DNA of 64,000 nucleotides, from positions 62,001-126,000 of the forward strand of contig JAJECO010000084.1 in the NCBI GenBank assembly GCA_022822005.1. Reading direction: 5' to 3'. Below, piece by piece: positions 37,026 through 41,143 of this stretch. The notes below the pieces were generated by a model. The model made no database searches. It had not been told where the DNA came from and saw only the letters and a program-made list of their open reading frames with translations. Position numbers and translations under genes: made by a program. Positions within the stretch are counted from its first letter, which is position 1; each line of letters begins with the position of its first letter. This stretch comes from Candidatus Poribacteria bacterium. GTDB lineage: Bacteria > Poribacteria > WGA-4E > PCPOR2b.

Positions 37026-40000
37026 TCACTCAGATCCTGCTACAGGTAACCCAACAAAAAGCCGGCTATCAATATCTGTAAGCGGATCGACTTCACCGCA
37101 CGCTGCGGCACGGGCGAAAACGATGCCGGGATGTTTGGCTCGCATCGCACGAGAAAGAACGGTAAACCCTTTCGATTGGCTGCTGTCACGTAGTTCCCAC
37201 GCAACGCGTTGCAGCTCCGAGCTAAATCGAACAAGCCCTTCACGTGAGCCAATGCACAGCGTGTAGAGTTCATTAGACGTTAAACCATCGCAATACCCGT
37301 TACGAATCACGATATCTCCCCCTCGAATATCTGAAACCACCCCTCGCGCCCCAACAACACAAGCGAGTCGATAAAGCCTGCTCGTAAAGGCGCGGCTTTT
37401 GACTGCGAGGATGTGCGGTCCCAAGTTATTATCATCATAGTTTTCGTAAGCGGCAATCCATTCCATAAGTTCCTCCGCGTAAGTGTTCCACGCTGTTGCA
37501 TCGTCGGGATCAGTAGGAACGGGAGGACTACCATCGCCCCTACTGAGGAACGGACTCATGGAGGCTCCCGATCTCTTTGCAATCTCAAATCCCCGCTGCG
37601 TCAGACGTTCAGCAACCTCAATGGTACGATCAATCCCCTCGCGTTTGAGGAGTGTTTTCAGCGTATCCGTTAATGACTGCCGCGTGACCAAACCCTCAGG
37701 GATAGCAACCTCCATTCCGACAATTTCTGCAAGCTCATCACGTCCTTCGGGGGTGAGACTCAAACTTGCCAACCCCCATATCGCATCATGCCCCGGGGCT
37801 AACGCTGTGCATATATTCGGATCTTGTTTGAGATGCCCAGCGATGGACAGCTGCTCACCGGCTTCCTGTTGACCCTCCGCTGTGATCGGCAAGAAAATCG
37901 CCGCTTGGTCGCCGTCAAAGTCAGCATTCATCAACTCACAGACAAAGGGATGAACACGGATAGCGCGGTCTGGCTGGCGCACCGGATGGAATGCAACAAA
38001 GGAGGTAGGCGAAAACGCAGGTGCTCGATGTACAATCACCCATGAACGTGCCATCAGCTCATCGAGGAGATGTGTTGCCCTCTGGCTTTTTCCTTGTACC
38101 TCTTTGCTTTCACCAAGTTCTTTTGCAACCCGCGACCCAAAAAGTGCCCACGCCATCTGCTCAGGAATGCCGACCTGATCGGCGCGTAACTTCGCATCTG
38201 GTACAATAACGCTGCGTCCACTGAAAAGCGTCCGTGCGTCAAAGCGCATATCCGCGGGCCCTAGAAGTGCGTCGAAATATTCCGCAAGGCGTGTTTGGAG
38301 CTGCTTGAGGGTTTGAAGAGTTAAACTTTCCGGTGCATCATTTGCAAACATCCGCTCTGCTCTGGTATTGACATCGGCAAGTGCACGATACTCGGAAACG
38401 TCTTCACATATACCAACTTCATCAATAATTTGAGCATGGAGCCACGGATGGGGGACTGGCTGGGCAAGCTGGAGCGTATTCCCAATCGGACGCGCAAATC
38501 GGAAAGTCAATTTGTCATCGTCCAAGTTAGCGTGGATGCCCCCCGCCGACAGTCGCTCCCTGAGTTTGGCAAACATCGGCGTCGGTGGGCCCGCCTGTTC
38601 AACTGTCCCTGCTGTAACGCGATCGGGAAGTGTCTCCACATCTGCCCGCGTCGAAGCACGGGTGTTGAAATGTTCCCGCAAAGTCTCAAACGCTGAAACG
38701 TTGCGTAGTGTATAGTATTCCAGTTCGCCAAACCCTTGATGGTATATAGGTTCGTCATGAACGATGGGCTCGGAGACCTTGAGCTTATCCAGCGCAATGT
38801 GAACCGTCTTTCCCCAATAAACCCAACCAACCGTACTCGGCCGATCCAGTTTCTTACCGTTGGCTCCAAACGTGAGGGTTTCCATCCCATCTTCAGGCAG
38901 TCCTACCTTTTGGAGTCGCTCACGGAGTTGATCGGCACTGGATGCTTGAAATGGCGGCACAATAGCGACTTCACCCTCCACCCGCGCGATGCGGCTCATG
39001 ACCGCTTCACGAATCTGACCAAAGTTCATCCGTCCATGCAAAGCACCAAAACTGAAAACGAGCTCCACCGGCGTACCATCGGCGAGGTGGGGCATCTCAT
39101 CGTCAGGAAGGATGCGCGAAATGACCCCCTTCGTCCCGTGACGGTTACTGATCTTATCGCCCGGTTCAACGGCATAAGGAAAATTTAGACGTGCAGCGCA
39201 CGACTCACTAATCGCAATCCCGTCCTCAAAGGTCTCTCCACCCCAAGAGATAAAAGCGGTCAACAGATTACGGCCACACCAAAAGTCAGGCACATCGGGC
39301 TCGTAACCCGTCTGGACAAGCGCAGGCTCTGGAGTAGAAGGCGACAACCACTGACGCATCATGTTCGCACCCATGAGTATTCGCGATGGATCATTGTGTT
39401 CGAGAAAAGGGATCAGTGCTGCAGATAGACCAAGCGTCGCCTCAGGGCTTTCATCCACGATGACCAATTTTTCATCACGGATCTCCGCGCCTCTCGCAAT
39501 CGTTAGAATTTTGCCAACGTTGGGTCCCTCTGGCGTTTCAAATGGACAAGTCCGCCCAAAGTGTCCGGGGCTAAACACCTGATTCCCCTGTGAAATTTGC
39601 ACCCTACGCAGATGCGTCTGCTTGTCCAGCCAGTTGGTTCGAGAGAGTTTCTGAGCGGTGGGTGTATCACTAAAGAATTCACGCACCCATCTATCAATCG
39701 GGAGCCATGAGCGAACAAGTGATGTTTCCCATTCCAGATCTGGCGGTGCTTCCCTGATGCGTACTTTGAAGTAGTCGTACAGTTGATCTCCCATACACGC
39801 AACCTTCGCTTTTTCCAGCTTCACGGTTGAAGCGATCGGCACAACAACATAGGGTTCACCGTCGAGTGTGAACATGCCATCCGTATCAGGCTGCGGAACG
39901 TCCGTGTATTCGACCTCAACATAACCCCCAGTTGACGCCAGCACGATTCTGATCCGACAGGTATACGCACCGATTGATTCAAAATGATATCCAGCGAGCG

Positions 40001-40091
40001 GCACCCGATCAGCAAGAAGTTCTGGCAGTTGTTCTTTCATCAATTCTTCAAAGGATTCTTTGTGCCAAAATGCGGTGATGTTGTGCGACAT
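37026..40091 (-). CDS. Compact single-chain RNA polymerase beta/beta-prime-like protein
   Basis: 1021 residues holding, in the order of normal rpoB then rpoC, recognisable parts of both catalytic subunits. Beta part: GMFTLDGEPYVVVPI (72-86), TH-x-RR (159-163), GRTCPFETPEGPN (179-191), AFISWGGETFEDGIAISE (279-296), GDKISNRHGTKG (311-322), GRMNFGQI (353-360), ALDKLKVSEP (433-442), GFGELEYY (453-460). Beta-prime part: LQLAQPVPHPW (540-550), SGRSVIVPD (624-632), HRAP (688-691), the catalytic NADFDGDQ (722-729), GFEIAKRSG (834-842), then DGLTSNELYTLCIGSREGL (935-953), matching the bridge-helix start. Both double-psi barrels are therefore present with the three metal-binding Asp. The flap, zinc ribbon, jaw and most of the trigger-loop region are missing. 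AGGAGG stands six bases before the ATG. A template-directed RNA (or DNA) synthesising activity is inferred; the target is unknown. Confidence 0.85.
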   Translation of the reverse strand: MSHNITAFWHKESFEELMKEQLPELLADRVPLAGYHFESIGAYTCRIRIVLASTGGYVEVEYTDVPQPDTDGMFTLDGEPYVVVPIASTVKLEKAKVACMGDQLYDYFKVRIREAPPDLEWETSLVRSWLPIDRWVREFFSDTPTAQKLSRTNWLDKQTHLRRVQISQGNQVFSPGHFGRTCPFETPEGPNVGKILTIARGAEIRDEKLVIVDESPEATLGLSAALIPFLEHNDPSRILMGANMMRQWLSPSTPEPALVQTGYEPDVPDFWCGRNLLTAFISWGGETFEDGIAISESCAARLNFPYAVEPGDKISNRHGTKGVISRILPDDEMPHLADGTPVELVFSFGALHGRMNFGQIREAVMSRIARVEGEVAIVPPFQASSADQLRERLQKVGLPEDGMETLTFGANGKKLDRPSTVGWVYWGKTVHIALDKLKVSEPIVHDEPIYHQGFGELEYYTLRNVSAFETLREHFNTRASTRADVETLPDRVTAGTVEQAGPPTPMFAKLRERLSAGGIHANLDDDKLTFRFARPIGNTLQLAQPVPHPWLHAQIIDEVGICEDVSEYRALADVNTRAERMFANDAPESLTLQTLKQLQTRLAEYFDALLGPADMRFDARTLFSGRSVIVPDAKLRADQVGIPEQMAWALFGSRVAKELGESKEVQGKSQRATHLLDELMARSWVIVHRAPAFSPTSFVAFHPVRQPDRAIRVHPFVCELMNADFDGDQAAIFLPITAEGQQEAGEQLSIAGHLKQDPNICTALAPGHDAIWGLASLSLTPEGRDELAEIVGMEVAIPEGLVTRQSLTDTLKTLLKREGIDRTIEVAERLTQRGFEIAKRSGASMSPFLSRGDGSPPVPTDPDDATAWNTYAEELMEWIAAYENYDDNNLGPHILAVKSRAFTSRLYRLACVVGARGVVSDIRGGDIVIRNGYCDGLTSNELYTLCIGSREGLVRFSSELQRVAWELRDSSQSKGFTVLSRAMRAKHPGIVFARAAACGEVDPLTDIDSRLFVGLPVAGSE

Positions 40092-40138: not shown

Positions 40139-40258
40139 TAGGACTGACGCAGCACGTTCATAAGTCCCCCTGATTTTCCAAAGTCCCCTTGACAAGGGGG
40201 GCGAGGGGGGTTAAAAACAAAATCTACCCCTTGTGTGCTAAATTTGCGTAAGCCCTGA
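40139..40258. repeat. Inverted-end repeat containing a G-rich dispersed repeat core
   Basis: AGGACTGACGCAG at the left and TTGCGTAAGCCCT at the right are inverted relatives (AGG-CTTACGCA type ends). Between them are TCCCCTTGACAAGGGG, a perfect hairpin, and the GGGGGGTT words of the dispersed repeat. It occupies the 190 bases between the sigma factor and the polymerase-like gene. Confidence 0.55.
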
Positions 40259-40281: not shown

Positions 40282-40896
40282 TCATTCCTTATCTTCTTCC
40301 CAACCGCTTGCGATTTCCCTCCATTCGCGAGCGAGATGTCTTATGGAATAGTATAAACGCGACTTCACAGTGCCTTCTGGAATGCCCAGCTCTATGGCGA
40401 CTTCTCGAAGTGCCATCTCTTTCTGATATATGAGGTGCAGCACCTCTCGTTTCTCTTGGGGCAGCCCATCAACAAGTTGCCAGAGCAGCTGGGACCGTTC
40501 GGCTTGCTCCACCATCACTTCGGGACCGCCCGATGAGGTATCAATCAGCCAAGCCGGATCTGGTGGACGTTCTCCCTCATCATCGTATTCGTCCGGCGGC
40601 GTTTCGAGCGGCTCTTGCCGCCGTCGCCGCACAGTGCGCAGATAATTGAGGGCGAGATTCGTTGCGATGCGAAAAAGCCAGCCCTTGAACTCGCCTTGAC
40701 CATTCCACTGTTCAGCGCGCGTCCAGACACGCAAAAACACCTCTTGAACCAGATCTTCGGCAGCACTCTCAACCTGCACGATGCTAAGGATATGCTGGCG
40801 GACGGACGCACTGTGCCGTGCAAAAAGGATCTCAAAAGCAGCGGCATCGCGTTTCACAGTCTTACAAATGAGGGTTTGGTCTGATTGCTCCATCAT
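40282..40896 (-). CDS. ECF-type RNA polymerase sigma factor
   Basis: Sigma-70 family factor of the extracytoplasmic-function group, 204 residues. Region 2 spans AAFEILFARHSASVRQHI to FKGWLFRIATNLALNYLR and includes the DLVQEVFLRVW core-binding and -10 recognition helices. An acidic linker (EYDDEGERPPDP) follows, then region 4 with LPQEKREVLHLIYQKEMAL and the helix-turn-helix IPEGTVKSRLYYSIRHL. ATG 40896 follows GGAAG; a frame to 41004 is open but unsupported. No anti-sigma gene follows. Instead the compact polymerase-like gene lies 190 bases downstream on the same strand, so the two may form one unit. A GAACTT/GTGTC pair 18-45 bases upstream resembles an ECF promoter. Confidence 0.9.
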   Translation of the reverse strand: MMEQSDQTLICKTVKRDAAAFEILFARHSASVRQHILSIVQVESAAEDLVQEVFLRVWTRAEQWNGQGEFKGWLFRIATNLALNYLRTVRRRRQEPLETPPDEYDDEGERPPDPAWLIDTSSGGPEVMVEQAERSQLLWQLVDGLPQEKREVLHLIYQKEMALREVAIELGIPEGTVKSRLYYSIRHLAREWREIASGWEEDKE

Positions 40897-41143
40897 AAAA
40901 GACTTCCACTGTAAATGACACCGCGGGGGAGATAAAAGTTCATGGCATAGACCAAAAAATGGGATTAGGTCGAAACGGTCCCATCTTATCTGTCGAAATA
41001 ACACAACAAGGAAATAGGTCAGAGGAGAGACAAAATTCTGATATCCGACTCCTCTCTGATTTTTGGATTTTGGGTAGCATGAAGGGGTGCAAATGTGATA
41101 AGATGCAGGTGTTACATATCACACAACACATTGGGCCAAAAAT

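Follow-up and report, generated by a model that had tools for sequence, protein, structure and literature searches.

The window that we analyzed is a 64,000-nucleotide stretch of a Candidatus Poribacteria genome (G000:C20:62001-126000; the source genome is 6.0 Mb and 97.8% complete). On its minus strand, an open reading frame at positions 37026 to 40091 encodes a 113-kDa protein of 1021 residues, in which RpoB landmarks come first and RpoC landmarks after. The features of the locus are as follows, with the evidence for each in parentheses.

40917..40942, minus strand: conserved ECF-type promoter, TGAAC-N15-GGTGTC, upstream of the sigma gene (motif comparison)
40282..40896, minus strand: dedicated ECF sigma factor of ~204 aa with regions 2 and 4 (Pfam, synteny, tree)
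40185..40217, minus strand: GC-rich (C-rich), inserted-looking sequence in the gap between the sigma and polymerase genes, outside the conserved unit
37026..40091, minus strand: fused β/β' mini RNA polymerase (ORF, profile, alignment, and model evidence)
38472..40091, minus strand: β-like part, aa 1-540 (E. coli RpoB alignments)
aa 179-191, minus strand: GRTCPFETPEGPN, β landmark (motif check of the translated ORF)
39204..39275, minus strand: β ED motif, E289 and D290, equivalent to E. coli E813/D814 (alignment, motif check)
39126..39161, minus strand: GDKISNRHGTKG, with the β double-psi barrel lysines K313 and K321, equivalent to E. coli K1065/K1073 (alignment)
aa 317-322, minus strand: RHGTKG (motif check of the translated ORF)
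aa 353-360, minus strand: GRMNFGQI (motif check of the translated ORF)
38262..38393, minus strand: β' clamp-helix hairpin, aa 567-610, predicted dock for sigma region 2 (alignment, profile, model)
38196..38222, minus strand: SGRSVIVPD, aa 624-632, equivalent to E. coli β' SGRSV around R352 (alignment, motif check)
37905..37928, minus strand: NADFDGDQ, aa 722-729, catalytic metal triad D724/D726/D728 (motif check)
37044..37352, minus strand: F-loop/bridge-helix-like region and short C terminus, with a β' region-H-like motif at the end and no trigger loop (alignment)

RpoB profiles cover the N-terminal half of the open reading frame and RpoC profiles the C-terminal half, with high significance. 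The protein matches TIGR02013 rpoB (E = 8.7e-55), rpoC_TIGR (E = 3.6e-28), and the fused β/β' profile PRK14844 (E = 9.5e-54), and its Pfam matches are PF00562 (1.4e-36), PF00623 (9.8e-20), and PF04565 (1.5e-9). Based on these E values, its likeness to β and β' is far above chance. A first-pass annotation had described β and then β' landmarks, collinear in one 1021-residue chain, and this description held, with all of the quoted motifs found. Its numbering of the catalytic aspartates as 725, 727, and 729 was wrong by one residue, which is the only error that we found in it. Its claim that the polymerase is additional to the housekeeping enzyme is correct: full-size rpoB (1486 aa) and rpoC (1420 aa) are present as separate genes on another contig (G000:C58), and the mini polymerase is therefore an extra enzyme. 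The annotation would have been refuted by a genome lacking other rpoB and rpoC genes, which is not the case here. We also rejected an assembly artefact of rpoB and rpoC, since these genes are on a different contig and orthologues of the mini polymerase occur in independent genomes with conserved flanks. The housekeeping RpoB of the source genome (L141:4146-8606) is interrupted by a large insertion close to E. coli position 356, in which we noticed by eye an HNH-like CxxC...HH pattern; a Pfam search gave no match.

The sigma gene product matches Sigma70_r2 (1.2e-16) and r4_2 (5.1e-10) in Pfam and thus has sigma-70 regions 2 and 4 without region 3, as expected of an ECF factor. The GTG codon at 41004 probably extends this gene spuriously. 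At all 13 loci that have upstream sequence (10 in Poribacteria and the others in Hydrogenedentota, Gemmatimonadota, and Myxococcota), an ECF sigma gene is directly upstream of the polymerase gene on the same strand, and at one of them (L036) the two genes share a 4-bp overlap. No other conserved neighbor was found at the 13 loci, including an adjacent anti-sigma gene, which is common but not universal for ECF factors. Among the ECF factors of the same genomes, the partner sigmas group together in a single long-stemmed clade (100/99). Sigma and polymerase identities are correlated (r = 0.88 for 28 pairs, a value inflated by shared ancestry), and the two genes are co-inherited one-to-one in four phyla. 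Both the gene pair and its co-inheritance are shown by these data. A natural sigma-polymerase fusion at L038 was rejected, the N-terminal extension there being an out-of-frame overlap with the sigma gene. The sequence at 40185 to 40217 of the window is absent or different in the sister species and resembles an inserted repeat.

Parts kept and lost in the mini polymerase

Alignments with E. coli show that the chain is a stripped but collinear bacterial-type β plus β', as the first-pass annotation had proposed. It has counterparts of approximately residues 31-63, 86-146, 441-583, 648-709, 793-825, 1054-1124, and 1179-1342 of E. coli β and of approximately residues 265-309, 330-518, 575-~800, and 1331-1363 of β'. 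In these alignments there is no counterpart of the β lobe (147-440) or of the β flap with its flap-tip helix (826-1053), and the β' zinc ribbon, most of the clamp, and the jaw are missing. There is also no counterpart of β' residues ~801-1147, which hold the trigger loop (QLTMRTFHIGG, 929-939). The chain has no alpha domain, and the sigma-polymerase unit has no alpha gene.

The DxDxD metal triad is invariant in ten aligned family members, while the surroundings of NADFDGD diverge in some members. Barrel lysine K321 is conserved in every member that covers the position and K313 in most; the counterpart of E. coli β' N458 is incompletely conserved. The clamp helices are supported both by a profile comparison with PDB β' chains, in which the alignment begins at about position 562, and by an AlphaFold2 (AF2) model, in which they are placed at 565-582 and 587-607 with good confidence. 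A long helix at 938-969 is modeled with low to moderate confidence. In E. coli, R275 and E295 of β' contact sigma. The equivalent residues are V574 and T594 here and V/A/L and T/V/A in the family; we infer from sequence alone that such replacements would suit a private sigma.

AF2 gave a poor model from ten sequences only (pLDDT 52) and a better one (pLDDT 80.4, pTM 0.74) from 99 rows that included RpoB and RpoC fragments. A Foldseek search with the AF2 model retrieved solved polymerase β chains (E = 5.7e-22) and β' chains (E = 1.4e-19). This likeness is partly expected because the input alignment held RpoB and RpoC fragments, but sequence profiles alone, compared with PDB chains, agree with it. 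Profiles, model, and structure search all support the presence of both β and β' barrel domains, and based on fold and motifs we assign the protein to the two-barrel (multisubunit-type) polymerase superfamily; that it synthesizes RNA is inferred. A wrong fold was the other result that would have refuted the first-pass annotation, and the predicted fold resembles both subunits, although the barrel-to-barrel geometry was not measured.

The dN/dS values are low (0.13-0.15 for the polymerase and 0.11-0.20 for sigma), which shows that both genes are under purifying selection. One alternative is that the protein is a noncatalytic relic or a regulator, for example a sigma sink. The absence of a trigger loop and the loss of most peripheral domains are consistent with this, as is the divergent NADFDGD context of some members. 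Against it are the invariant metal triad, the conservation of K321 wherever the position is covered, and a dN/dS of ~0.14, and we consider it very unlikely. The first-pass suggestion that the enzyme is probably active is supported by the triad, by purifying selection, and by a model that matches both subunits, but it remains an inference without activity data.

Promoter motif and targets

The motif TGAAC-N15-GGTGTC is found with identical spacing before the sigma start at 13 of 13 loci and also in a 14th genome (G102), in which the sigma fragment runs into the contig end. In Hydrogenedentota, Gemmatimonadota, and Myxococcota the motif is kept even though the remaining upstream region differs. 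A promoter of the -35 GAAC/-10 GTC type at the factor's own gene is a further ECF criterion that is met. The exact long motif TGAACTTT-N12-GGTGTCAT occurs once per genome, at the own sigma gene, in seven of the eight family-1 (f1) genomes that have the system (G000 and G002-G007), and the eighth (G008) has one site with one mismatch. The family-2 (f2) genomes G009 and G012 each have two exact sites, the second of which precedes two ABC-2/DUF3526 permease genes (L174:7389-10554 and L175:2099-5262). No exact match was found in ten scanned genomes without an intact system. Other matches, to looser or shorter versions of the motif, are mostly within ORFs, and in a control with N16 spacing there was no match at any sigma gene in six genomes. 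These results show that the promoter is both conserved and specific. The first-pass annotation had proposed a separate target set for the polymerase, which is supported by the dedicated ECF sigma and its promoter, neither of which it had noticed.

The family and other nonstandard polymerases

Relatives of the mini polymerase are distributed patchily across six phyla and form a single deep clade. Identity to the orthologues is 84-90% (segments) in the same genus, 52-68% in the same family, and ~47-49% overall in a related family. Outside Poribacteria, orthologues are found in Hydrogenedentota (two), Gemmatimonadaceae, Myxococcales, Chloroflexi, and Latescibacterota. The Hydrogenedentota group has the polymerase in only 2 of 68 genomes, and a search of many f3 Poribacteria genomes did not detect it. 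Synteny is kept within the genus, where the system lies between bioD and a Gfo/Idh gene; between genera, the flanks differ. One species retains only a remnant beside bioD (G001:C1:3597475-3597639), consisting of the C-terminal 55 residues and containing a stop; the system has therefore been lost in that species and is dispensable. A copy in G079 (L134:4266-6368) lacks the first ~300 residues, has MDLDFDGD instead of NADFDGD and CARTV instead of SGRSV, and has no sigma upstream; it may be decayed, or the assembly may be broken there.

In a tree of 1009 columns, all members of the family group in a single clade (100/100) on a long stem, separate from the housekeeping, fused alpha-β-β', mReC-like, and fused viral enzymes. 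The family did not arise by recent copying of Poribacteria rpoBC, but its root cannot be placed firmly because the branches are long.

The mini system resembles a housekeeping RNA polymerase (alpha2-β-β'-omega) with an ECF sigma in its collinear motifs, both barrels, clamp helices, ECF regions 2 and 4, and ECF-type promoter. It differs in being one 1021-aa chain without alpha, lobe, flap, zinc ribbon, jaw, or trigger loop, and in having a sigma and a promoter of its own. The YonO protein of Bacillus phage SPbeta is also a single two-barrel chain, of ~100 kDa, without a recognizable trigger loop (PMC5467207). In contrast to YonO, the mini enzyme has many bacterial motifs, clamp helices, a chromosomal locus, and a sigma link, and there is no sequence match between the two. 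We rejected membership in the YonO family, since the best BLASTP match (E = 0.15) is away from the active site and a profile search at maximum sensitivity gave no match, whereas E. coli β (4e-63) and β' (1.6e-49) do match. Jumbo-phage multisubunit enzymes such as the AR9 nvRNAP (PMC7598289) likewise lack alpha, and the AR9 enzyme requires a promoter-specificity protein, but enzymes of this type are viral, consist of several chains, and use a specificity factor that is not recognizably a sigma. The mReC phage polymerase (PMC7481178) and the viral proteins L260 and L289 are, like the mini polymerase, divergent yet alignable to cellular β and β', but they are larger, with either two genes (~900 and ~1000 aa) or one fused chain (~2010-2030 aa), and form a separate clade. 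The fused β-β' polymerases of ~2010-2030 aa on viral contigs are L260, L289, and L290; of these, L260 and L289 group in one clade together with L115, L117, and L124.

A second alternative is that the mini polymerase is a domesticated phage polymerase of the jumbo phage, mReC, or YonO type. Phage two-gene and fused two-barrel polymerases do match its profile. However, the mini clade is separate from the mReC-like and fused viral enzymes (100/100 stem, long branches), viral contigs yield only distant relatives and no orthologue, YonO searches are without a match, and the polymerase is paired with a bacterial sigma. We consider domestication very unlikely, and we rejected a known phage or plasmid origin, there being only distant viral relatives and no record that matches over 80% of the protein. 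PADLOC gave no defense-system match for the polymerase.

A selfish self-transcribing cassette, in which sigma and polymerase express only themselves without benefit to the host, is possible; this reading is about purpose and is compatible with the explanation that we favor below. In f1, the exact long motif is found only at the own operon, and the patchy distribution (2 of 68 Hydrogenedentota genomes), the different flanks in each genus, and the decay in G001 all fit this view. On the other hand, flanks are conserved within the genus, both genes are under purifying selection, the second target operon is conserved in G009 and G012, no conserved mobility gene adjoins the locus, and no phage or plasmid record reaches the 80% match.

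Larger single-chain alpha-β-β' polymerases, also extra to housekeeping rpoB and rpoC, are carried by two related genomes of the phylum, G075 and G083 (only 2 of the 59 phylum genomes sampled): L137:5638-12288 (2216 aa) and L136:6895-13599 (2234 aa). In the 2216- and 2234-aa chains, alpha domains precede β and β' (PF01000, 7.5e-21 and 3e-20; PF01193, 1.1e-15 and 6.9e-22), and L136 has a second dimerization domain (PF13656, 9e-12). An ECF sigma gene is directly downstream in L137 and divergent upstream in L136. These proteins share with the mini polymerase the single chain, the adjacent ECF sigma, and the additional status. In contrast to it, they have alpha domains and the main β and β' domains, and they branch with the housekeeping enzymes (98/96), so the arrangement of a sigma with a single-chain polymerase probably arose more than once. 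G008 also contains parts of another fused large polymerase, cut at contig edges (L139:5031-8865 and L138:702-3149), with a downstream sigma that is 71% identical to the L137 sigma; it is possible that G008 holds three core polymerases.

Proposed mechanism and significance

The explanation that we consider likely is that the gene pair is a self-contained, autoregulated, orthogonal transcription system, chromosomal and of two genes, made up of an ECF sigma and a single-chain core. Sigma region 2 would bind the mini core through the kept β' clamp helices, and sigma would direct the core to TGAAC-N15-GGTGTC promoters and open them. The core would carry out two-metal RNA synthesis at the interface of the β and β' double-psi barrels without alpha, flap, zinc ribbon, or trigger loop. 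From the main promoter, the holoenzyme would transcribe its own sigma-polymerase operon, which would amount to positive autoregulation; in f2, the second promoter would drive the ABC-2 permease operon, and the regulon would be very small. Catalysis, sigma binding, the pairing of sigma with the mini core and not with the housekeeping core, and autoregulation are all inferred, in the absence of biochemical or expression data.

In known ECF holoenzymes, sigma region 4 docks on the β flap and enfolds the flap-tip helix (PMC6411747). The mini core has no flap, and sigma must therefore be held differently. A polymerase can remain active without a trigger loop, given that YonO is processive and has no recognizable one (PMC5467207), and the jumbo-phage enzymes indicate that alpha can be dispensable (PMC7598289). 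Nevertheless, the missing trigger loop and the incomplete conservation of the N458 counterpart count against the favored explanation, as do the finding of a single target beyond the operon, in f2 only, and the dispensability of the system in G001. Adjacency and autoregulation would equally result if sigma used the housekeeping core.

This last point is the basis of the main rival explanation, in which sigma uses the housekeeping polymerase and merely controls the mini gene, the product of which is a separate, sigma-independent enzyme (e.g., RNA copying or promoter unspecific). In its favor, ECF sigmas normally work with the housekeeping core, the flap on which sigma region 4 docks is absent from the mini core, and YonO is a stripped two-barrel enzyme that functions with no known sigma (PMC5467207). 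Against it, the clamp helices, the main known role of which is sigma binding, are among the few noncatalytic parts kept; sigma and polymerase are co-inherited one-to-one; and the genomes are nearly devoid of other promoters of the TGAAC-N15-GGTGTC type. We consider this rival unlikely. In its boldest form, the favored explanation is of a 113-kDa single-chain, sigma-dependent, orthogonal polymerase with its own promoter, carried on the chromosome in several phyla, deeply branched from housekeeping enzymes, and serving mainly itself and at most a few genes. We lean toward this reading, but only by a modest margin.

We found no description of a sigma-linked single-chain core in the open-access literature that we searched, subscription papers being outside that scope, and within this literature a chromosomal, single-chain second core dedicated to a sigma appears to be undescribed. 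Bacteria are taught as having one core RNA polymerase common to all sigma factors. If confirmed, a second natural core that has its own sigma and promoter would break this rule, and proof of sigma dependence would make the whole system categorically new. It would show how much reduction, to a core without flap, trigger loop, or alpha, is compatible with sigma dependence, and it would provide a compact orthogonal transcription system for study. With the mini system, the question of which core parts are truly needed by a sigma factor becomes open to testing.
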